Part shown: positions 11,509-59,033 of the stretch, piece after piece | How positions within the stretch are numbered: the first letter of the stretch is position 1 | How the letters are laid out: each line of letters opens with the position of its first letter | Source: Malus domestica | Lineage: Eukaryota > Streptophyta > Magnoliopsida > Rosales > Rosaceae | Direction of reading: 5' to 3' | NCBI RefSeq assembly: GCF_042453785.1 | Contig: NC_091670.1 | Location: forward strand, 38,451,501 to 38,515,500 | Length of the DNA: 64,000 bases | The notes under the pieces: model-generated | The model's database searches: none | Seen by the model: only the letters and a program-made list of their open reading frames with translations | Told to the model about the DNA's origin: nothing | Translations under genes and position numbers: made by a program

Positions 11509-11678
11509 GAGAAATGCTAAGGAGATTCTTTCAAAAGTGGGACTTTTCATGGACTTTTTGTCATCTCGTATTTTTTACATAATTCTTGTGTCAATATTAT
11601 AAAACATTATGTTGAAAACACGAGAAGTGAAGAGTTCATGAAGAATCTCACTTTGAGAGGGTCTCCTTAGCATTTCTC
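11509..11678. repeat. Hairpin MITE family E
   Basis: 170 bp with near-perfect terminal inverted repeats: GAGAAATGCTAAGGAGA at the left, its complement TCTCCTTAGCATTTCTC at the right, plus inner matches (AAAAGTGGGA / inverse). Diverged relatives are visible at about 26650-26800 and 29451-29610. No ORF. Fits a small non-autonomous DNA transposon. Confidence 0.75.
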
Positions 11679-14781: not shown

Positions 14782-14966
14782 AGGATCCTCTCCTGAGCAA
14801 TTCCCTAGGGATCCCGCAATCTTGTCCGTTCATTTTATATCGTGCGGTCAATTTTTGTTAGGTACTATTCATATTTGAATTTTAAAATTTAAATTTTAAA
14901 TAATTTATGACCGCACGATATACGATGAACGGATATGATTACGGGATTCCTAGGATCCCTAGGGTG
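14782..14966. repeat. MITE family D, copy 1
   Basis: About 185 bp with inverted ends rich in AGGATCC and CCCTAGGGATCCC, and inner inverse matches (ATATCGTGCGGTCA / TGACCGCACGATAT). A second copy with the same layout is at 29687-29899. Confidence 0.65.
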
Positions 14967-38200: not shown

Positions 38201-41200
38201 CGTTATGCAAGTATCATCTAAGTGAGGTGTTCAATTTGACTCGTCCGACAGATTGCTTTGAGACGAGAAAAGATGGGTGCAACAGCTCCTTTCTGGAGAT
38301 TTTCTGCAGATTCTTATCCAGATCTTGAGAAGTCCACGTCTGATGGTGCTCTTGCAGTGAAAGCAAATCGTACGCTCAATGGTGATGCTGTTACTGCCTC
38401 AAGGGTATGTTTTTTTGTTGTTCTTTTTCTATCGAGCAGATTTCATATGTGCGGTTAATTTCTCTACATGCACGCATAGTTATCTAATTCTTATTTATAT
38501 GGAATCCTTTTTAGTAACGCTGAAAGGGGTTCTCCTATCATATAATGGGTGCCTCATTCACAATACATTCCAGATATTTAGTTATTTATATGTCGCACAA
38601 CAAACTGTGTTGTCCTCTGATAAAATCATTAACTGTTATCATTTACGACGATAACATGTATGTGCACAGCTTTTACTCTTGCCTTTGCCATTTTGGATTG
38701 AACATAAGCGAACCTCATTTCATTATTGCAGGGCGACGTTTACCCCGTGGAGCCCTATGATGACTTCCGTTTGAATACAGTTCTTGATGCGCATTGGGGT
38801 GTTCTCTATGATGAAGATGTAAGTTTCTTTACAATAATCAATTCATTTTGTGTTTCACTTAAGTCCAAATATTGCCTTGTATGAGACGTACAAGGAGGCA
38901 AAAGAACGGAGATACAAGGAGGCAAAAGAACGGAGAATTAGATGGAGACCTCAACCATAGAATACAAGCTAGATGGATGAAGTGGAAGAGTGCATCTGGC
39001 GTGTTGTGTGACCATCGTATGCCACTGAAGCTCAAGGGCAAATTTTATAGGACGGCAATAAGGCTGGCGATGCTGTATGGCACAGAATGTTGGGTGGTGA
39101 AGCATCAACACGTACATAAAATGGGTGTAGTGGAGATGAGGATGCTTCATTGGATGTGTGGGCACACGAGAAAGGATAAGATTAGGAATGAGGATATCCG
39201 AGGTAAAGTAGGAGTAGTCGAAATTGAAGGAAAGATGAGAGAAAATCGGTTACGATGGTTTGGACATGTGCAAAGAAGGCCTACTTACGCTCCGGTTCGA
39301 AGATGTGACTACGGGACAGAGGTTCAGGGCCGATGGGGTAGAGGAAGACCTAGGAAAACTTTGGAAGAGACCCTAAGAAAAGACTTAGAGTACTTGGATC
39401 TAACGGATGACATGACACAGAACCGAGCGCAATGGTGTTCTAGGATTCATATAGCCGACCCCACTCAGTGAAAAAGGCTTTGTTGTTGTTGTTGTTGTTG
39501 ATGATGAGACGTACAAGGTGGAAAAATCGATGTATCTGCTTAGGAAGTAGGCTCTTTATTCATGTTTGCTTTACTCTACAAACCAATGCCATTGAAACCT
39601 TACCTGTGCCGTTCATTCTAATATGCAGTCAACTGGGGTTCGATCACACACCTTGTCTATGATTGTAAATGACTATCCTGGAGTTCTAAACACAGTTACA
39701 GGAGTCCTGTCCCGAAGAGGTTATAACATTCAGGTTTGTTGATTCTGATCCGCGCTCACTTTTTACATTTGGTTTTCTTGGGCCTTTGCTCATGTGGTCA
39801 TTGGATTTCATTTCACACTTCTAGAGCCTGGCTGTGGGGCCTGCTGAAGTGGAGGGGCTTTCTCGCATTACAACAGTTGTTCCCGGTACAGACGATTCAA
39901 TATCCAAGTTGGTTCAGCAACTCCACAAGTTGATAGATCTTCATGAGGTGAGGGTTACAATGTTCAAATATGCAAATTAAAAAAAGAAAACTAATGAAAA
40001 GGGCTTGAAAACTTTGAGTTTTAATGATAAGGACAAAATAAAGGGTAAAGTGAATAGTACCAGGATTGACTTTTTAGTGTAAAAATGTGGTTTTTCGTTA
40101 AAGTAAACAGTACCGGGTGCTTTTCGTTAAAGTTCCCAATTAAAAAATGTATTGAAAAAGCTCGTACACAACTTGAAACTCTGCATTTCCGATTCTAATC
40201 ACTTTTTGCAAGTCAAATGCCATTGTTTCAGTCGCAATCTGGTCGGTGTGGTAGGTTGGGGTTGATGACTAAATATAAAGTAGTTCTATGACCCATGATC
40301 TTTTTTTTCCCCTCTCCATATTTCGATTAATCAAAATCTGCTCCTCAGTTATCTGTCAGTCATCGATACTAGGCAGCCTTGATAATAAGATCCTACCGAA
40401 TTCAACATTGATGAGTTAATGAGTGTTAATTTTGAGATGATGAAGTTTTTCCAAGGTTAATCACAAAATAAGATTTGTTCATGCCTTCATGGATGATAAC
40501 GCTGGTTGTTCCTCCAGGTTCGGGATATTAGTCACTTACCGTTTGCTGAGCGAGAGTTGATGTTGATAAAGATTGCTGTGAACACTACTGCTAGAAGGGA
40601 TGTTCTTGATATTGCCAGCATTTTCCGTGCCAAAGCTGTTGATGTGTCCGATCATACAATTACCCTTGAGGTTGAGGCTTTTTCCCGCACTCCTATTGTT
40701 TGTTATACTTTCACAAAAATTCTAGAAGCAGGGTAGTTGTTCTTGCTTTCCTTTGGTCCTTGGAGTTTGGACCATGACTCATCTCCCTGAGTAAGACTAA
40801 TAGCAATAGATGGCGATACCATTCATGGATTCTCACATACAGAACAAGAATTTGTGAGTTACTAGTCTTATGGAATCTGTTGAGAAGTTCTGCCTCCGAA
40901 CAGGATCAATGTCAGCGTGGTTCTTGTATTTAGTTGTATTAATGAATGCGATTATCGCTAATCTTACTAATACGATCTACTCATGATTGTTTTCAGCTAA
41001 CTGGTGATTTAAATAAGATGGTTGCACTGCAGAAGTTACTAGAGCCCTATGGGATTTGCGAGGTCTGTTTTCTCATTCTTTTGTTGGTCTTGTACTGAAC
41101 AATTAACTTAGCATATAAATTTCAGGTTTCCACATGAGCTTTGGTCCTCATGTCTTAACATTGTTTTTCCTCCTTGAAGGTTGCGCGGACTGGGAGGGTG

Positions 41201-41263
41201 GCGTTACAGCGGGAGTCTGGTGTGGATTCCACATATCTCCGCGGATACCCCCTTCCGTTGTAA
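35277..41263 (+). CDS. Acetolactate synthase regulatory (small) subunit, plastid
   Basis: Regulatory subunit of acetohydroxyacid synthase, the first common enzyme of Val, Leu and Ile synthesis in plastids; it raises activity of the catalytic subunit and confers feedback inhibition. Twelve exons: 35277-35488, 36655-36868, 36950-37033, 37397-37465, 37665-37748, 38252-38404, 38732-38818, 39629-39733, 39825-39947, 40518-40670, 40997-41062, 41180-41263; 477 aa. Residues 1 to about 60 are Ser-rich and basic, a chloroplast transit peptide. Two homologous repeats follow, the plant-specific double IlvH layout: ACT1 from about 74 ([20 protein letters not shown]) and ACT2 from about 307 ([20 protein letters not shown]), each with a RRGYNI(E/Q)SLAVG motif and a downstream ERELMLIK domain. 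The intron after exon 5 uses a GC donor (37749). Intron 7 carries a LINE insertion, intron 9 a MITE, intron 1 two tandem duplications. A large insertion begins 60 bp past the stop. Confidence 0.97.
35768..35867 (+). repeat. 50-bp tandem duplication in ALS intron 1
   Basis: Two virtually identical adjacent copies starting ATCATTGGGTAATTGGCTTT. Confidence 0.92.
35990..36087 (+). repeat. 49-bp tandem duplication in ALS intron 1
   Basis: Two identical adjacent copies starting ATACGGTGATACGTAAAATC. Confidence 0.92.
38881..39518 (+). mobile_element. 5'-truncated RTE LINE in ALS intron 7, with TSD
   Basis: A 15-bp direct repeat ATGAGACGTACAAGG flanks the insert (38881-38895 and 39504-39518). Between them lies the 3' end of the same LINE as at 46423-49685: codons for [20 protein letters not shown] through to IHIADPTQ, stop, then AAAAAGGC and a (TTG)n tail at 39480-39500. 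The truncated 5' edge carries a 24-bp tandem duplication (38890-38937) spanning the target and LINE sequence. The insertion is sense to the host gene but inside an intron. The frame is open apart from the truncation, so it is fairly young. Confidence 0.92.
39986..40136 (+). repeat. MITE family A, copy 3, in ALS intron 9
   Basis: 151 bp, GAAAACTAATGAAAAGGG at the left and GGAACTTTAACGAAAAGC inverted at the right; matches 4258-4409 and, inverted, 259-412. Confidence 0.75.
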
Positions 41264-41337
41264 TGCCAGTTCCTCGCCCATTTCCTCTCTTGCCATCCAT
41301 TTTGACGAGCTCACTGTGTGCCTAGCTTTGTTCATAT

Positions 41338-41959
41338 ACAACAACAACAACAACAACAACAACAAAGCCTTTTCCCACTAAGTGGGGTCGGCTATATGAA
41401 TCCTAGAACGCCATTGCGCTCGGTTTTGTGTCATGTCCTCCGTTAGATCCCAGTACTCTAAGTCTTTTCTTAGAGTCTCTTCCAAAGTTTTCCTAGGTCT
41501 TCCTCTACCCCTTCGGCCCTGAACCTCTGTCCCGTAGTCACATCTTCGAACCGGAGCGTCATTCGGCCTTCTTTGCACATGTCCAAATCACCGGAGCCGA
41601 TTTTCTCTCATCTTTCCTACAATTTCGGCTACTCCTACTTTACCTCGGATATCCTCATTCCCAATCTTATCCTTTCTCGTGTGCCCACACATCCCACGAA
41701 GCATCCTCATCTCCGCTACACCCATTTTGTGTACGTGTTGATGCTTCACCGCCCAACATTCTGTGCCATACAACATCGCTGGCCTTATTGCCGTCCTATA
41801 AAATTTTCCCTTGAGCTTCAGTGGCCTACGACGGTCACACAACACGCCGGATGCATTCTTACACTTCATCCATCCAGCTCGTATTCTATGGTTGAGATCT
41901 CCATCTAATTCTCCGTTCTCTTGCAAGATAGATCCTAGGTAGCAAAAACGGTCGCTTTT
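41338..41959 (-). mobile_element. RTE LINE 3' end with (TTG)n tail (LINE A)
   Basis: Minus strand encodes SDRFCYLGSILQENGELDGD to IHIADPT, then AAAAGGCTTTG and an (AAC)n/(TTG)n tail (41338-41365). The match to the full-length copy starts abruptly at about 41959. One change near the end removes the Gln-stop context. Confidence 0.85.
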
Positions 41960-43362
41960 TGTGATCTTCGCTAGATTGCTCCGGTCATTAGCGTGGATAA
42001 GTATATAAATGGATAGAGATAGGAAAGCAAACACAAGATGTACGTGGTTCACCCAGATTGGCTACGTCCACGGAATAGAAGAGTTCTCATTAATTGTGAA
42101 GGGTTTACACAAGTACAAAGGTTCAAGCTCTCCTTTAGTGAGTACAAGTGAATGATTTAGTACAAATGACATTAGGAAATATTGTGGGAGAATGATCTCG
42201 TAATCACGAAACTTCTAAGTATCGGAGTGTGGTGTCGTCTTGACTTGCCTTATCTGTCTCATAGGTAGATGTGGCATCTTCTCTGGAAGTACTCTTCCTC
42301 CATCCAGGGGTGGTATCTTTAACTGGTGGAGATGCACAAGGTAATGTATCAATTTCACTTGAAGCTTACTTGTAGTTTCAGGCTTGGTCAAGCGCGATAC
42401 AAACCATGTAGTAGGAGTCCCCCAAGTCGCCGAGCTAGGGGGTCTGCTGAAAGAGGTGACAGACAAGGTAAGCAATCAGAGCTCCGACTGATTGTTCACC
42501 TTCTCCCCATCTTGCAGCAGCATGAAGGATAAAGAGAAGAAAAATGAGAAGAGATGATATGAGATACTTTTGCTTTTGAAGAAGTAACTTTCCACAGGCT
42601 TATTCTTGAACTGAGCTGGAGGGTTTTCTGGTTTCCTCCAGAGTATAAGGCCGACTGAAGAATTTGAGGGTCAAAACAAGTCCATCAAATCTAGAGTACG
42701 TTCCACCCTGCTGATATGGGATACTTTTGCTTTTGACAGAGTAATGGATGTATCGGCACGTGTGCTGTTACGCTTGTCTCCACATGCTTCCTTGTATCCT
42801 TCGCACTTGCCCTATCTGTTCCTCAAGCAGATGCGGAATCTTCCCTGGAAATATAAGATGTTGAAGATGAGTACTCGAGAGCAATGCCAGGTAAGTAATC
42901 AGGTAAGGGGTTCCAGGCAGTCAGTTCCTGGCTGGAAGCTTGATTCCAAGTGCTGACTGATTGCTCTCTTTCTCCTTGTCTTGCAGGTAAAAACAAGGCC
43001 AAAGGAAAAGACAGGGAAAAAGCATGATATGGGATACTCTTGCTTTTAACCCTGATGATATGAGATATTCTTGCTCTAGTATAGCTTGTTTGCAGAGGTA
43101 TTATCGGGGGGAAGGAAAGCTGAATATTTCGAAAGGCTTCGTTGGGAGTGCCCTCTCAGATATGATGAAGGGTTGAGCATTTTTGCAGGTCTGCCTGTCT
43201 GTTGGGGATGGAGGTCGACATATATAGGAGTCTCCCTAAGAAGTAGTAATGCTATTCCTTTACCCTGCTTGGTCATAGCACGGTAGTGGGAGCTGCCAGT
43301 TTCACATGTTTTAACTCTGTCAGAGCACTTTGAAAAAGTGGTCTGTGCTATCTGGCTCTCGA

Positions 43363-45190
43363 GATTCGGAGAACGATGCCTTTTCGATTTTTGAGAAAGC
43401 AATCATGCTGGGGGTCTGGCTCTCGAGATTCGGAGAGCAGTGTCTCTTCGATTTTTGAGAAAGTAATCATGTTGGGAGTTTGGCTCTCGAGATTCGGAGG
43501 GCGGTGCCTCTTCGATTTTGGAGCAAGCAATCTGTTGGGAGTGTTGTCTCGAATGTGAGTAAAGGTTGGGCATGTTTGCTAGTCTACCTTGCCACGAAGC
43601 ACAAAGGTTAACACACAGGGACTTTCCAATTATCCAGCAATGGTACTGTTCCTTTACCCTCTCTTCGATTTTGAGAAAGTAGTCATGTTGGGAGTCTGGC
43701 TCTCGAGATTCGGAGGACGGTGTCTCTTCGATTTTGGAGCAAGCAATCTTGTTGGGAGTGTTTTCTCGAATGTGAGTAAAGGTTGGGCATGTTTGCTAGT
43801 CTACCTTGCCACAAAGCACATAGGTTGACAAGCAGGGACTTTCCAATTATCCAGCAGTGGTACTGTTCCTTTACCCTTGTGGGTAATAATATGGTAGCTA
43901 GACCTTCAAAATTTATGTGTCTAAACTTTGTTAGTGCTGTTTCTTTGCTATTCTTTTACCTTTCTTGGTCAGAGCGATGTAGTGGGAGTTGCAAGCTTCA
44001 CGTGCTCAACTTTGGCAGAGAACTTTGGCAAAGTTATCTGTGGTACCCATGAGCTATTGTTGCGTGTGGGAAGTGGGTGATTGAACAGTAAGATTCATGT
44101 GCTTTCTACTTCACCAGAAGTCTTCGACAGAATGCCCATAATTTCTGCAAAGCTGAGTGTGCGTGTGACAGGTGCTGACAAGGCTAGAAAAGTAGGTGCC
44201 TCTTCGATTTCTGAGATCGGCCCTCGTGGTCTCTAAGCAGCCCAGCTTTTGAGAAAAGCGAGCACCTCTTCGATTGATTCGGAGAACGATGCCTCATCGA
44301 TTTTTGAGAAAGCAATCATGCTGGGGGTCTGGCTCTCGAAGATTCGGGGAGCAGTGTCTCTTCGATTTTTGAGAAAGTAATCATGTTGGGAGTCTGGCTC
44401 TCGAGATTCGGAGGGCGGTGCCTCTTCGATTTTGGAGCAAGCAATCTTGTTGGGAGTATTTTCTCGAATGTGAGTAAAGGTTGGGCATGTTTGCTAGTCT
44501 ACCTTGCCACGAAGCACAGAGGTTGACACACAGGGACTTTCCAATTATCCAGCAATGGTACTGTTCCTTTACCCTCTCTTCGATTTTTAAGAAAGAAGTC
44601 ATGTTGGGAGTCTGGCTCTTGAGATTCGGAGGACGGTGCCTCTTCGATTTTGGAGCAAGCAATCTTATTGGGAGTGTTTTCTCGAATGTGAGTAAAGGTT
44701 GGGCATGTTTGCTAGTCTACCTTGCCACGAAGCACATAGGTTGACACACAGGGACTTTCCAATTATCCAGCAGTGGTACTATTCCTTTACCCTTGTGGGT
44801 AATAATATGGTAGCTAGACCTTCAAAATTTATGGGTCTAAACTTTGTTAGTGCTGTTTCTTTGCTATTCTTTTACCCTTCTTGGTCAGAGCGATGTAGTG
44901 GAAGCTGCAAGCTTCACGTGCTCAACTTTGGCAGAGAACTTTGGCAAAGTTATCTGTGGTACCCATGAGCTATTGTTGCGTGTGGGAAGTGGGTGATTGA
45001 ACAGTAAGATTCATGTGTTTTCTACTTCCCCAGAAGTCTTCGACAGAATGCCCATAATTTCCGCAAAGCTGAGTGTGCGTGTGACAGGTGCTGACAAGGC
45101 TGGAAAAGTAGGTGCCTCTTCGATTTCTGAGATTGGCCCTCGTGGTCTCTGGGGAGCCCAGCTTTTGAGAAAGCGAGCGCCTCTTCGATT
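43363..45190 (+). repeat. ~913-bp tandem duplication in element X
   Basis: Copy 1 about 43363-44275, copy 2 about 44276-45190, both opening GATTCGGAGAACGATGCCT; offset is 913 at the start and 916 at GAGCTATTGTTGCG. By eye well over 90% identical. Each copy is itself made of smaller repeats: a 63-bp unit (CTGGCTCTCGAGATTCGGAG ... 'tcttcgatttttgagaaag') and a longer 'tgagtaaaggttgggcatg' unit present twice per copy. Confidence 0.92.
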
Positions 45191-45345
45191 TCTGAGATCA
45201 GCCTTCGAGGTCTTTGAGCAGCCCAACTTTTGAGAAAGCAAACGCCTCTTCGATTTCTGAGATCAACCCTCGTGATCTCTAAGCAGCCCAGCTTTTGAGA
45301 AAGCAAACGCCTCTTCGATTTCTGAGCAGGCGCCTCTTCGATTTC
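45104..45345 (+). repeat. ~60-bp minisatellite
   Basis: Four copies, the last partial, of a unit with GCCTCTTCGATTTCTGAGAT, 'cctcgtggtctct' and CAGCCCAGCTTTTGAGAAAG. It ends about 140 bp before the element X ORF. Confidence 0.9.
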
Positions 45346-45487
45346 TGAAGCTCCGTCAAGTGCAGATTTTTATAGGGGCTGGCATTAAGTTCCAAAGCAC
45401 ACTTGAATCTCCACCAGTAGAAGCTTCATTCTTGCACTTCTAAGATCTTGATTTGTCCGACCTCTTCTCTCTTCAACACCTTTGAAA

Positions 45488-46162
45488 ATGTCTGGCCCCT
45501 CCGACCGTCGTTTTGACTTGAACCTTGTTGAAGAGGCAGCCCCGCCTTCTCCAGACAACATATGGCGCCCATCCTTCGTCTCCCCTACTGGTCCTCTTAC
45601 CGTTGGGGATTCCGTGATGAAGAATGATATGACCGCTGCGGTGGTGGCCAGGAACCTTCTCACTCCCAAAGATAACAGACTACTTTCCAAACGGTCTGAT
45701 GAGTTAGCTGTTAAGGATTCGCTGGCTCTCAGTGTTCAATGTGCAGGTTCTGTGTCTAATATGGCCCAACGCCTATTTGCTCGAACCCGCCAAGTTGAAT
45801 CATTGGCGGCTGAAGTGATGAGTCTCAAACAGGAGATTAGAGGGCTCAAGCATGAGAATAAACAGTTGCACCGGCTCGCACATGACTATGCTACAAACAT
45901 GAAGAGGAAGCTTGACCAGATGAAGGAAACTGATGGTCAGGTTTTACTTGATCATCAGAGATTTGTGGGTTTGTTCCAAAGGCATTTATTGCCTTCGTCT
46001 TCTGGGGCTGTACCGCGTAATGAAGCTCCAAATGATCAACCTCTGATGCCTCCTCCTTTTAGGGTTCTGTCCAGTACTGAGGCTCCAAATGATCCCCCTC
46101 CGGTGCCTTCTCTTTCTGGGGCTCTACCGACTGCTGAGACTTCTCCTAAGCAACTTTTGTGA
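45488..46162 (+). CDS. Element X coiled-coil protein, function unknown
   Basis: Intact ORF of 224 aa starting MSGPSDRRFDLNLVEEAAPP. Residues 1-45 are Pro/Ser-rich and contain DLNL; residues about 92-150 are strongly predicted by eye as coiled coil (RQVESLAAEVMSLKQEIRGL then KHENKQLHRLAHDY, hydrophobic heptads with charged partners). The C-terminal 60 residues are Pro-rich with repeated 'EAPND' (179-183, 198-202). No signal peptide, membrane span, zinc knuckle or enzyme motif. I recall similar anonymous repeat-borne ORFs from apple and pear, but cannot verify. A C/T-rich leader with 'ttcttgcacttctaag' precedes the start; AATAAA-like 'caataaataagc' follows at about 46229. Could be a structural protein of a non-autonomous retroelement or a captured host gene piece. 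Confidence 0.6.
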   Translation: MSGPSDRRFDLNLVEEAAPPSPDNIWRPSFVSPTGPLTVGDSVMKNDMTAAVVARNLLTPKDNRLLSKRSDELAVKDSLALSVQCAGSVSNMAQRLFARTRQVESLAAEVMSLKQEIRGLKHENKQLHRLAHDYATNMKRKLDQMKETDGQVLLDHQRFVGLFQRHLLPSSSGAVPRNEAPNDQPLMPPPFRVLSSTEAPNDPPPVPSLSGALPTAETSPKQLL

Positions 46163-46422
46163 AGGCTCCCTCTTGTGTGTTTATTTTGACTCATGTATAT
46201 GTACATATTTGTAGCTTATCGGGGATATCAATAAATAAGCTTTCCTTCATTTCAACGTATTGTGTTAAATACACCAAAGCCTTCTTCGCTAAGTTCTTTG
46301 AATTTTCTTTTGTTGAAGCTTGTATGTTGAAGCTTTCTGAGTGGAGCATGTAGGTTGGGGTAGTGTTCCCTTAATTTTCCGAGTGAGGAAAACTTCTCGG
46401 TTGGAGACTTGGAAAATCCAAG

Positions 46423-49400
46423 TCACTGAGTGGGATCGGCTATATGAATCTTAGAACGCCATTGTGCTCGATCATGTGTCATGTCCTTCGTTAGATCCAA
46501 GTACTCTAAGTCTTTTCTTAGAGTCTCTTCCAAAGTTTTCCTAGGTCTTCCTCTACCCCTTCGGCCCTGAACCTCTGTCCCATAGTCGCATCTTCTAATC
46601 GGAGCGTCAGTAGGCCTTCTTTGCACATGTCCAAACCACCGTAACCGATTTTCTCTCATCTTTCCTTCAATTTCGGCTACTCCTACTTTACCCCGGATAT
46701 CCTCATTCCTAATCTTATCCTTTCTCGTGTGCCCACACATCCAACGAAGCATCCTCATCTCCGCTACACCCATTTTGTGTACGTGTTGATGTTTCACCGC
46801 CCAACATTCTGTGCCATACAGCATCGCCGGCCTTATTGCCGTCCTATAAAATTTTCCCTTGAGCTTCAGTGGCATACGGCGGTCACATAACACGCCGGAT
46901 GCACTCTTCCACTTCATCCATCCAGCTTGTATTCTATGGTTGAGATCTCCATCTAATTCTCCGTTCTTTTGCAAGATAGATCCTAGGTAACGAAAACGGT
47001 CGCTCTTTGGTATTTCTTGATCTCCGATCCTCACCCCTAACTCGTTTTGGCCTCCATTTGCACTGAACTTGCACTCCATATATTCTGTCTTTGATCGGCT
47101 TAGGCGAAGACCTTTAGATTCCAACACTTCTCTCCAAAGGTTAAGCTTTGCATTTACCCCTTCCTGAGTTTCATCTATCAACACTATATCGTCTGCGAAC
47201 AGCATACACCAAGGAATATCATCTTGAATATGTCCTGTTAACTCATCCATTACCAACGCAAAAAGGTAAGGACTTAAGGATGAGCCTTGATGTAATCCTA
47301 CAGTTATGGGAAAGCTTTCGGTTTGTCCTTCATGAGTTCTTACGGCAGTCTTTGCTCCTTCATACATATCCTTTATAGCTTGGATATATGCTACTCGTAC
47401 TCCTTTCTTCTCTAAAATCCTCCAAAGAATGTCTCTTGGGACCCTATCATACGCTTTTTCCAAATCTATAAAGACCATGTGTAAATCCTTTTTCTCATCT
47501 CTATATCTTTCCATCAATCTTCGTAAGAGATAGATTGCCTCCATGGTTGAGCGCCCTGGCATGAACCCGAATTGGTTGTCCGAAACCCGTGTCTCTTGCC
47601 TCAATCTATGCTCAATGACTCTCTCCCAGAGCTTCATTGTATGACTCATTAGCTTAATACCCCTATAGTTCATGCAATTTTGTACGTCGCCCTTATTCTT
47701 GTAGATAGGCACCAAAGTGCTCGTTCGCCACTCATTTGGCATCTTCTTCGTTTTCAAAATCCTATTGAAAAGGTCAGTGAGCCATGTTATACCTGTCTCT
47801 CCCAAAAGTTTCCACACTTCGATTGGTATATCGTCTGGGCCTATTGCTTTTTTATGCTTCATCTTCTTCAAAGCTACAACCACTTCTTCCTTCCGGATTC
47901 GACGATAAAAAGAGTAGTTTCTACACTCTTCTGAGTTACTCAACTCCCCTAAAGAAGCACTCATTTCATGTCCTTCATTGAAGAGATTATGAAAATAACC
48001 TCTCCATCTGTCTTTAACCGCGTTCTCTGTAGCAAGAACCTTTCCATCCTCATCCTTGATGCACCTCACTTGGTTTAGGTCCCTTGTCTTCTTTTCCCTT
48101 GCTCTAGATAGTTTATAGATATCCAACTCTCTTTCTTTGGTATCTAGTCGTTTATACATATCGTCGTAAGCCGCTAACTTAGCTTCTCTGACAGCTTTCT
48201 TCGCCTCTTGCTTCGCTTTTCTATACCTTTCACCATTTTCATCGGTCCTCTCCTTGTATAAGGCTTTACAACATTTCTTCTTAGCCTTCACCTTTGTTTG
48301 TACCTCCTCATTCCACCACCAAGATTCCTTTTGGTGTGGGGCAAAGCCCTTGGACTCTCCTAATACCTCTTTTGCTACTTTTCGGATACAACTAGCCATG
48401 GAATCCCACATTTGGCTAGCTTCCCCCTCTCTATCCCACACACATTGGGTGATTACCTTCTCTTTGAAAATGGCTTGTTTTTCTTCTTTTAGATTCCACC
48501 ATCTAGTCCTTGGGCACTTCCAAGTCTTGTTCTTTTGTCTTACTCTTTTGATATGTACATCCATCACCAACAAGCGATGTTGATTAGCCACGCTCTCTCC
48601 TGGTATAACTTTGCAATCCTTACAAGTTATACGATCCCCTTTCCTCATTAGAAGAAAATCTATTTGTGTTTTTGACGACCCACTCTTGTAGGTGATCACA
48701 TGTTCTTCTCTCTTCTTAAAGAAGGTGTTGGCTAAGAAGAGATCATATGCCATTGCAAAATCCAAGATAGCTTCCCCATCCTCGTTTCTCTCCCCAAAAC
48801 CATGGCCACCATGAAAACCTCCATAGTTGCCTGTCTTCCTGCCCACGTGTCCATTTAAATCTCCTCCTATAAATAACTTCTCCGTCTGAGCAATTCCTTG
48901 CACCAAGTCTCCAAGATCTTCCCAAAATTTCTCCTTCGAACTCGTATCCAACCCTACTTGAGGTGCGTACGCACTAATCACATTGATAAGTTCTTGTCCT
49001 ATTACAATCTTGATTGCCATGATTCTATCTCCTACCCTCTTGACATCTACAACATCTTGTACCAAGGTCTTGTCCACGATGATGCCAACACCGTTTCTCG
49101 TTCTATTTGTGCCCGAATACCAAAGTTTAAACCCTGAGTTTTCTAGATCCTTTGCCTTACTACCAACCCACTTAGTTTCTTGTAGGCACATAATATTTAT
49201 CCTTCTCCTCACCATAACTTCCACTACTTCCATAGATTTTCCCGTTAAGGTTCCTATATTCCACGTTCCTAAACGCATTTTGCTCTCTTGAACTCTACCC
49301 TTCTGTCCTAGCTTCTTCACCCTCCCCCGTCTAATAGGATCAAAGTACTTCTTTTGTGTGTCCCGGGTAAAGTTGATAGGAGCATATGCTCCCAAACAAC

Positions 49401-49581
49401 TTTGAGTGGAGTCGTTCGAAAAGAAGTTTCTATGGCCCCCTTGCTCATTTAACACTGCATCCGGGTGCCGATGGAGATACAGCGACCCTTGCTCACTTAT
49501 CACTGTGCTCGGGCCACACAGCGCGCCACTTACGGGTGACGCCCTAGCTTTAGCGCGATTTTCTTCTGGATTCATTTTCAT
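46423..49581 (-). CDS. RTE LINE endonuclease / reverse transcriptase, intact
   Basis: 1052 aa, uninterrupted. APE-type endonuclease at about 103-345: [10 protein letters not shown] (105-114), the catalytic Glu in QETKW (134-138), GGDLNGHVG (239-247), QIDFLL (306-311) and the terminal His in NQHRLL (333-338). A Lys/Glu-rich linker follows. Reverse transcriptase at about 575-860: [46 protein letters not shown] (704-717), [19 protein letters not shown] and the active-site FADD (795-798). C-terminal basic region ends [18 protein letters not shown]. All catalytic residues expected for both enzymes are present, so the protein may be functional; it nicks target DNA and primes cDNA synthesis there. 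The nearest relatives in the window are the truncated copies at 38896-39503 and 41338-41959. Confidence 0.95.
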
Positions 49582-49685
49582 AAGGATTCGACGTGATCAT
49601 GGAGTGCCGGCTGTCGACTACCTGACGCCCTCCCCCTCCTCCTTTATCCGGGCTTGGGACCGGCCATGTAAGACATAGGCGGAGT
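46423..49685 (-). mobile_element. Full-length RTE-clade LINE (LINE B)
   Basis: Minus-strand element with a 104-bp leader (49685-49582), one long ORF and no 3' UTR or tail: similarity to the other copies stops exactly after the TGA at 46423. Single ORF with N-terminal endonuclease and no RNase H domain, plus a (TTG)n rather than poly(A) tail in sister copies, are RTE traits. Confidence 0.85.
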
Positions 49686-49744
49686 TAGCTTTGTTCATAT
49701 GATAAGGAATAAAAATCCAGTTGGGCTGTTAGGTCTAAAGAAAG

Positions 49745-50094: not shown

Positions 50095-50219
50095 AAAGTC
50101 AAGGCAATTTCTTCGCATAACTAATAAAAACTTAGCTCGCTTCTAAAAGGCAGATCCAGGTGGAGAGGGAAAAAAAAAAAAAAAAAAAACGGAACGAACT
50201 TGATTGCGAAAACAAAATG

Positions 50220-50293
50220 TGGCCCATACAGGTCTCGAACCTGTGACCTTCGCGTTATTAGCACGACGCTCTAACCAGCTGAGCTAATAGGCC
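50220..50293 (-). tRNA. tRNA-Ile (AAU anticodon)
   Basis: 74 nt, read on the minus strand from GGCCTATTAGCTCAGCTGG. Acceptor stem GGCCTAT/ATGGGCC (one U-G pair), D arm GCTC...GAGC, anticodon stem TCGTG/CGCGA with loop CTAATAA (anticodon AAT), T arm ACAGG-TTCGAGA-CCTGT. No intron. A run of T on the minus strand (A-run at 50171-50190 on plus) lies 30 bp downstream and can stop polymerase III. Confidence 0.96.
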
Positions 50294-57391: not shown

Positions 57392-58438
57392 TTTAATTAA
57401 GGATAAATAGCCAAAATGGTCTCTGAGATTTGCATAACTCATTACTTTGGTCCCTGAGATTCCAAATCGATAAAAGTGGTCCCTGAGATTGTCCACCATC
57501 CATCATTTTGGTCATTCCGTTAAAAACTCCGTTAAGTGTCCTGGAGCTCTTGACCGGAAGTTTGGGCAATTTTCAAAGCTTCGTAACTCAATTATTTCTT
57601 AACCAAATTTGACCCATAATATATCAAAATGAAAATAGGAAAGTGTAGAATAAGATTATACCTATTTCAAAGCCTAATGGTTGCCGGAGATGGCCAGAAA
57701 ATAGCCTCAAAGTTGACTGGTCCGAGTGAAAACTTGAAAACTCGCCGGAAACTGGGTAAACTTTAAATGTTCGTAACTTCTTCAATACTCAACGAAATCA
57801 GTGATTCAAAAACGAAAATCATACTTCTCAACAAGACAAAGAGAATGGAACATTTTTCGACGGCTAAATCGTCTTGGTTAGGCCGGAAAACAGCTCGAAA
57901 GTGACTAACTCGAGACCAAGATAGCCACTTTCGAGCCGTTTTCCGGCCAAACCACCGCAAGTTAGCCATAAAAAAAGGTATCATTCTCTTTGTCTCATCG
58001 AGAAGTATGATTTTAGTTTTTGAATCACTTGATTTCATTTAGTATTGAAGAATTTATGAACGTTTAAAGTTTACCCAGTTTCCGGCGAGTTTTCAAATTT
58101 TCACTTTGACCAATCAACTTTGAAACTATTTTCCGGCAATCTCCGGCAACCATTGGGATTCGAAATAGGTATAATTTTATTCTACACTTTCCTATCTTCA
58201 TTTTGATATATTATGGGTCGAATTTGGTTAAGAAACGATTGAGTTACGAAGCTTTGAAAATTACCCAAATTTCCGGCCAAGAGCTTCGGGACACTTAACG
58301 AAGTTTTTAACGGAATGACCAAAATGATGGATGGTGGACAATCTCAAGGACATCTTTTATCGATTTGGAATCTCATGGACCAAAGTGATGAGTTATGCAA
58401 ATCTCAGGGACCATTTTGGAGATTTACCTTTTAATTAA
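57392..58438. mobile_element. Mutator-type foldback (MULE-MITE), ~1 kb
   Basis: A 9-bp direct repeat TTTAATTAA (57392-57400, 58430-58438) flanks 57401-58429. The two halves are inverted copies of each other over about 500 bp each, from GGATAAATAGCCAAAATGG at the left edge to the inverse of AGGTAAATCTCCAAAATGG at the right, meeting near 57915. Nine-bp duplications with long inverted ends are the mark of Mutator-like elements. No transposase; non-autonomous. Confidence 0.85.
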
Positions 58439-59033
58439 AGGCTAAACTTTTTCAATAGAGCCTAATATATATTCCCAAAACATCTTTTTTTCATTTCCTT
58501 GAAATTTAAAGCTTTTTCCTTTGAAAAAAAACAACAACCGTAACTGTCATAGTGAAGGCCAATCCTTGTTGTTGACACAACACCTCCTTCTTAGGTGCAC
58601 AATAACATGCCTCTAATTTAAAGGCATTGCAAGGAAGTTCCTACATGAGGAGAGTTACACTTTTAGCTGAGGTGTGAAAACAATCTACTTAACCAAAATC
58701 TATACGATTTGTTTATTTAGGTATTAACAGAAAGAAAAATATAAAAGTGAAGGTTGTGAAAAGCATGGGACATGGCATTCTCCCGGCTTGACCTGCAAAG
58801 CGCAGCCAAGCCATTTGTTTTCTGAGGGCTGAAGCTTTGGGACTTGGGGAGGTGGGAGATCGGGGATTGGTGGGCAAAGTCACAGCCGTGAAGCTCAAGA
58901 GCAAGATCCATGTGGTCCCTGATCATAACGCAACAAAAATATAAAAGTGACGAGTTTTTTCTTTTTTACGTGGAACTTTGATTGAACGATATCTTAGAGA
59001 AGAAAAACGGGAACCATCTTTTTAATTCAAAGG
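58439..59033. other. Unassigned spacer
   Basis: No gene recognised; 58713-58926 is open on the minus strand without a recognisable product. Confidence 0.4.

Follow-up and report, generated by a model that had tools for sequence, protein, structure and literature searches.

An 8.35-kb block of the apple genome read as a copy of a composite RTE-type LINE with a 4.46-kb cargo

A composite LINE and its copies across the genome

The 64,000-nucleotide stretch of Malus domestica DNA analyzed here (NCBI RefSeq assembly GCF_042453785.1, contig NC_091670.1, positions 38,451,501 to 38,515,500 of the forward strand; named the window, with positions counted from its first letter) contains an 8.35-kb block that is very probably a full-length copy of a young, high-copy long interspersed nuclear element (LINE) of the RTE type. 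This element is a composite unit: it bears a twister ribozyme match, an open reading frame (ORF), a cargo named X, a second LINE 3′ end and a (TTG)n tail. Copies elsewhere in the genome show that all 8.35 kb move as a unit, as they share the 3′ edge, have a 5′ edge that is either fixed or truncated and mostly lie between new target duplications. Assignment to the RTE clade is suggested by the tail, the domain layout and the twister: a single ORF carries the domains PF03372 and PF00078 and no further Pfam domain, and the 3′ end is a (TTG)n repeat.

The block is framed by the 15-mer TAGCTTTGTTCATAT, which occurs exactly at 41323–41337 (left copy) and 49686–49700 (right copy) and at no other site in the window when up to two mismatches are allowed. 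Genome-wide there are two exact matches in 651,096,769 bases, both at the block edges, confirming the identical 15-bp repeat that an earlier note on this DNA had described around the block. The target duplication is 14 or 15 bp long, because one base may be part of the element end. On the minus strand the block runs from the LINE 5′ end (49685/49686) through the ORF (49581–46423), X (46423–41962) and the second LINE 3′ piece (41961–41376) to a short 3′ untranslated region (UTR) and (TTG)n; the outer edges are a LINE 5′ end and a (TTG)n tail in the same orientation, as the earlier note had it. The tail (41338–41366, minus strand) appears as a (ACA)9.3 tandem repeat at 41338–41365, and the homology of all 20 fetched copies begins at 41328–41350. 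The LINE ORF (46423–49581, minus strand) encodes 1052 amino acids with an apurinic/apyrimidinic (AP)-like endonuclease and a reverse transcriptase (Exo_endo_phos and RVT_1); LINE-1 ORF2 and R2 proteins are among the best PDB relatives of its product. The second LINE 3′ end (41367–41961, minus strand) consists of the short 3′ UTR and 586 bp of apparently untranslated ORF sequence with in-frame stops. These 586 bp overlap the inner LINE without gaps (41376–41961 versus 46424–47009, 94.0% identity). As read from the sequence, the LINE 3′ UTR before (TTG)n is only ~15 bp. As had been claimed, the 3′ UTR of the inner LINE is missing from directly behind the stop codon, but the loss amounts to only these ~15 bp plus the tail. 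The 4.46 kb of unrelated DNA reported between the LINE parts is also present, with its limits corrected to 41962 and 46423.

Copies were identified with a query across the X/LINE junction (46340–46520), which yielded 40 full matches at 99–100% identity, the window included, as the best 40 of 673 candidates; we compared the first 20 of these other than the window over 9.7 kb each. X and the LINE-X-LINE order with the (TTG)n edge were present in every one of the 20, some of which carry small internal gaps or duplications. Exact target duplications of 14–19 bp, all different, flank 15 of the 21 copies including the window, and the longest word shared by 420 mismatched flank pairs used as a control was 12 bp. 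Identical junctions elsewhere with other duplications, which the earlier note had named as a check, are thus found in 14 of the 20 other copies, with about 2,400 junction matches genome-wide. The target duplication of L052 holds a long A-run of unequal length on the two sides and is ambiguous.

The 5′ end lies at 49685–49686, as in the window, in 10 of the 20 fetched copies. Three copies (L035, L034 and L043) end 24, 38 and 181 bp short of the full-length edge, respectively, five (L038, L039, L044, L045 and L047) have lost more of the 5′ side, and L036 shows a 5′ inversion. The match in L048 stops at 47660 and is followed by LINE 5′ sequence (judged by eye), which corresponds to an internal gap. 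Variable 5′ truncation combined with a fixed 3′ end and duplications of variable length are the traces left when the entire 8.35-kb unit is copied by target-primed reverse transcription. Together with an empty site at the closest paralogue of the host gene, they identify the block as a non-LTR retrotransposon, i.e. one without long terminal repeats (LTRs).

Genome-wide counts were obtained with 32-mers allowing up to three mismatches: the right X/LINE junction gave 2,393 matches and the left one 2,500, matches that were not each checked as whole copies, and reversed-pattern controls gave 0 for both. This limit weighs against the reading of the block as a member of a high-copy family, as do the choice of the fetched copies by junction identity, which biases the sample to young copies, and the absence of a clear target duplication from six of the 21 copies. 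A 27-mer at the 5′ edge has 397 genome matches (up to three mismatches; reversed control 4); that full-length 5′ ends are fewer than right junctions agrees with the prediction of 5′ truncation. All 18 exact full-length 5′ ends listed on contig C1 are accompanied by the X junction or the X ORF at the composite distance. X right ends without a following LINE gave four genome matches at up to two mismatches, one of which seems to be an ordinary copy that has a single additional base.

X itself varies in length. Among 43 left and 79 right exact junctions listed on C1, 27 pairs were found, with 14 at 3.43–3.81 kb, four at 4.20–4.37 kb and nine at 4.46–4.47 kb. These classes argue that X changed its length while the element travelled, most simply via its tandem repeats of 64, 217 and 913 bp; in the window, nested repeats of about 64–65, 217 and 913 bp lie at 43351–45326 (plus strand), in line with the length classes. 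Mean pairwise differences among the fetched copies were 0.5–1.6% depending on the region, which suggests a family age under roughly a million years at what we take to be usual plant rates, the fetched copies being among the youngest by choice of the query.

At the 5′ edge of the window copy (49630–49691, minus strand) the Rfam model RF03160 for type-P1 twisters matched with 61.6 bits (gathering score 67.2); three of its four P1 pairs are non-standard and the 5′ strand of P1 is host DNA. The same model matched at the same edge in all seven full-length copies scanned, with scores of 54.4–65.2 bits in the eight copies including the window. We take the twister cleavage site to be U|A, as in the known twister structure, and it is predicted here between 49687 and 49686. 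This predicted site coincides with the 5′ edge of the element, which shows the window copy to be full-length as far as the prediction holds.

In the mechanism that we propose, one RNA would run from AACUCCGCC through the ORF and X to the outer (UUG)n, and the twister would trim its 5′ end. The reverse transcriptase would recognise the outer 3′ end and use target-primed reverse transcription to copy the whole unit; being without a tail, the inner LINE 3′ end would be skipped. X would ride along as a giant 3′ region, its opposite-strand gene for a putative coiled-coil protein being kept by selection during the spread. The X protein would help the element, with particle assembly, RNA binding and protection from silencing as candidate roles.

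LINEs of the RTE clade with endonuclease and reverse transcriptase and with (TTG)n tails are known from flowering plants (PMC3747384), and a review announces, as work in preparation, twisters that are truncated yet active at the 5′ ends of RTE retrotransposons (PMC7761336). The window element shares the endonuclease–reverse transcriptase ORF and the (TTG)n tail (PMC3747384) with the flowering-plant elements, and its 5′ twister match, below the gathering score, resembles what was announced for RTE elements (PMC7761336). Unlike them, it has a duplicated 3′ end and a 4.46-kb cargo in which an antisense gene lies. Tripartite LINE chimeras generated by double template switching and flanked by direct repeats have been described once in a fungus (Magnaporthe) and twice in mouse (PMC2104539). 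These also join three parts within one target duplication, of 14–16 bp in their case (PMC2104539), whereas the window element keeps an intact LINE and belongs to a family with more than 2,000 junction matches. Chimeras of LINE-1 with other RNAs similarly join foreign sequence to a LINE with which it is co-inserted (PMC13174262); here, in contrast, the foreign part sits downstream of the ORF and ahead of the outer 3′ end, and each of the 18 full-length copies checked on C1 has it. A literature search, which excluded repeat libraries, found no prior description of a LINE that has more than 2,000 junction matches and in which a 4.46-kb cargo, antisense gene included, separates the ORF from a second 3′ end. 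RTE LINEs with (TTG)n tails, RTE 5′ twisters (as announced) and LINE chimeras are already known, and it is the high-copy design of cargo plus antisense gene that we did not find described.

LINE chimeras are usually viewed as single dead insertions, whereas here an intact enzyme, an opposite-strand gene and more than 2,000 junction copies come together. The element is a natural test of how large a foreign load a LINE can bear behind its ORF and of whether captured DNA can supply it with an accessory protein. As each element has two 3′ ends, and only the outer one terminates the 20 examined copies, it also tests what a 3′ end alone specifies. At 4 kb or more apiece, the 2,393 junction matches would make up roughly 1.5% of the 651 Mb, the lengths of the matches not having been checked one by one.

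The two LINE 3′ pieces and the gene within X

We counted variants shared by two or more copies as nonsynonymous (N) or synonymous (S). Of the 13 copies with the complete LINE ORF, window included, 9 are free of stops and deletions in it (insertions were not scored), and the shared variants of this ORF in 21 copies are 9N:12S (73% N expected, p=0.003). The outer LINE piece shows no synonymous bias, with shared variants of 11N:2S in 21 copies. When a single third copy (38922–39506) was used as outgroup, 17 differences were confined to the outer piece (13N:4S, including two stops) and 14 to the inner piece (4N:10S), which argues that the inner piece is the end of a working ORF and that the outer one is a copy that is not translated. 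Inner and outer ends are 93.0–94.2% identical in each of the 19 copies that could be compared; most simply, this near-constant identity would mean that the chimera was made once and then inherited.

We rejected a recent tandem duplication of one LINE end, given the 93.0–94.2% identity in 19 copies and the different ways in which the two ends have changed. Independent nested insertions were rejected as well: by eye, no separate duplication marks off the left LINE piece from X, and the outer edges pair with each other. The third LINE copy is 5′-truncated, 585 bp long and, by eye, has its own (TTG)n tail and the target duplication GAGACGTACAAGG. It probably lies within an intron of the gene for the acetolactate synthase small subunit.

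On the opposite strand to the LINE, X contains an ORF of 224 amino acids (45488–46162, plus strand). Its frame is intact in 28 of 30 copies, window included, and the best 150 of 10,195 candidate genome matches are 99–100% identical and free of stops. A single-sequence structure model of the X protein displays one confident long helix (residues 60–167) and low confidence elsewhere (mean predicted local distance difference test score, pLDDT, 69.5), from which we infer that the product may be a coiled-coil protein. Searches of the X and LINE proteins against viral and bacterial collections, and of the junction and X patterns against viral contigs, returned nothing useful.

Shared variants of the X ORF were 3N:6S in 21 copies (71% N expected, p=0.02) and 5N:7S in 30 copies (p=0.03), whereas X read in two wrong frames as a control gave 8N:1S each. 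In four copies with a shorter X, which differ from the window by 1.2–3.4% with gaps counted, the frame is open to the same stop in three cases and to the end of the slice in the fourth (L053). Changes unique to these four older copies were 20N:24S (p=0.0004 versus 71%; Fisher p=0.014 versus the singletons). Taken together, the counts are moderate evidence that the X protein was under selection in those elements from which copies arose. We tentatively suggest, as a possibility falling just short of an even balance, that an RTE LINE took in a second transcription unit in antisense as a working accessory gene. Its enzyme would then be encoded on one strand and a selected coiled-coil protein on the other, and this two-strand form would have displaced the plain ancestral LINE by competition to become one of the dominant repeats of the genome.

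Several results speak against such a role of X. The X protein has no Pfam family above cut-off and no significant PDB match. Singletons in the X ORF look neutral (42N:17S in 30 copies), and in frame +1 they number 28N:21S (p=0.03), so that this control misbehaves. The selection signal consists of 12 shared changes and the four older copies, and when only the 586-bp end of the LINE ORF is counted, the shared variants are 4N:4S (p=0.14). It is possible, though we would not count it as probable, that the X ORF is a passenger that is intact merely through youth: the copies are ~1% apart and the singletons are neutral. However, a passenger would not lead one to expect that synonymous sites are favoured among the shared and older changes, which sets the X ORF apart from the untranslated LINE 3′ copy and from the wrong frames of X.

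Origin of X and the founding event

The LINE-side end of X (41958–42199, minus strand) is matched in L052 (92% identity, 242 bp) and in L044 (86%, 228 bp). The matched stretch begins downstream of a TATA-like box and sits between this box and TTTGGCGCCG...; in L044 a gag ORF (PF03732) comes next. Judged by these matches, X includes a piece of an LTR in LINE orientation. A gag-bearing LTR retrotransposon was noted at positions 3–1523 of L044 and near the end of L052, gag being seen in L044 only, and its LTR shares ~240 bp with X. A genome-wide search, which could miss diverged natives, found no native X close to element X outside the element. Candidates for the founding event are read-through from a tail-less LINE, double template switching and recombination.

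DNA recombination may have put X into a LINE, for example when a circle of X and a LINE 3′ fragment entered a resident LINE, with amplification by retrotransposition afterwards; we hold this origin to be possible, if somewhat doubtful. The two LINE pieces stand in exact register over 586 bp, 5,048 bp apart, and in comparison with the third copy at 38922 the differences switch sides near 41551–41562, as they would after a crossover. A permutation test of this mosaic gave p=0.008 without two sites that lie outside the third copy and p=0.034 with them. The change-point in the LINE end thus weakly favours recombination and is a hint on the founding event. A perfect 8+8 palindrome, seen in the sequence and by folding, spans the X/LINE junction (46407–46425) and lies on the right junction of the chimera, which would also suit recombination. 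However, the comparison relies on a single outgroup copy, and the 3′ part of the inner piece does not look neutral (4N:6S), unlike what would be expected of a dead donor. Recombination would furthermore account for the origin of the element and not for its spread. As an event between two LINEs at the window locus, the alternative offered by the earlier note, it is not supported: the chimera is a propagating family with the same order in 20 of 20 copies.

Rather unlikely, in our estimate, is a founder made by double template switching during reverse transcription, from a LINE 3′ end to an RNA of X and then to a full LINE RNA. Such switching has a precedent for LINEs in fungus and mouse, with 14–16-bp duplications (PMC2104539), and X, read in the LINE sense, ends as LTR-like sequence followed by A's at the join, which fits a jump onto a poly(A) end. 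However, the LTR-like piece begins ~8 bases from the TATA-like box, an implausible start site, and X, with a whole antisense gene and upstream repeats, resembles genomic DNA.

The earlier note had favoured mobilisation in a single event, and the block has in fact moved as one unit by LINE machinery. What does not stand is a one-time 3′ transduction at the window locus, in which transcription of a tail-less LINE would have continued across X to the tail of a second LINE and the product would have been inserted once. A single target duplication around the whole block and the empty site of the closest paralogue would agree with it, but each junction has more than 2,000 matches, and long, all-different duplications flank 14 of the 20 other copies. 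The junctions are not unique to an inserted copy and its source, so that this account is refuted for the locus, is very improbable overall and would at most describe the founding event. Just as improbable would be an LTR retrotransposon, for example HODOR, the large, high-copy 9.2-kb element of apple and pear (PMC6901071), or a segmental duplication: in spite of the LTR-like piece inside X, the copies show 14–19-bp duplications, a (TTG)n tail, 5′ truncation and a 5′ inversion, and neither direct terminal repeats nor a short fixed target duplication were found. By its description, HODOR resembles the window element in size and copy number and is an LTR element (PMC6901071), whereas the window element has no terminal LTRs and has LINE edges.

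Host locus and neighbouring features

The gene next to the insertion encodes the acetolactate synthase small subunit (PF22629, PF10369). The element begins 74 bases past the stop codon of this gene (41261–41263) on the opposite strand; hence the X gene points in the same direction as the host gene. An empty site, which the earlier note had proposed to look for in related genomes, was found in the closest paralogue of the host gene: this paralogue on C5 (87–91% identical), which is probably the homeolog, contains no element, and where the insertion would lie it has one diverged target site.

A tRNA-Ile (AAT) gene is located ~0.5 kb beyond the insertion (50219–50293, minus strand). Further away, a large palindrome of 1.05 kb (57392–58439) matches its own reverse complement at 88%. 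The self-complementary repeats at 14804–14954 and 11509–11678 gave weak matches, falling far short of the gathering score, to several families of plant microRNA precursors and are probably small inverted-repeat elements. In L050, a 5S ribosomal RNA match (394–505; 46.2 bits, gathering score 38) lies ~450 bp from the tail of the LINE copy.

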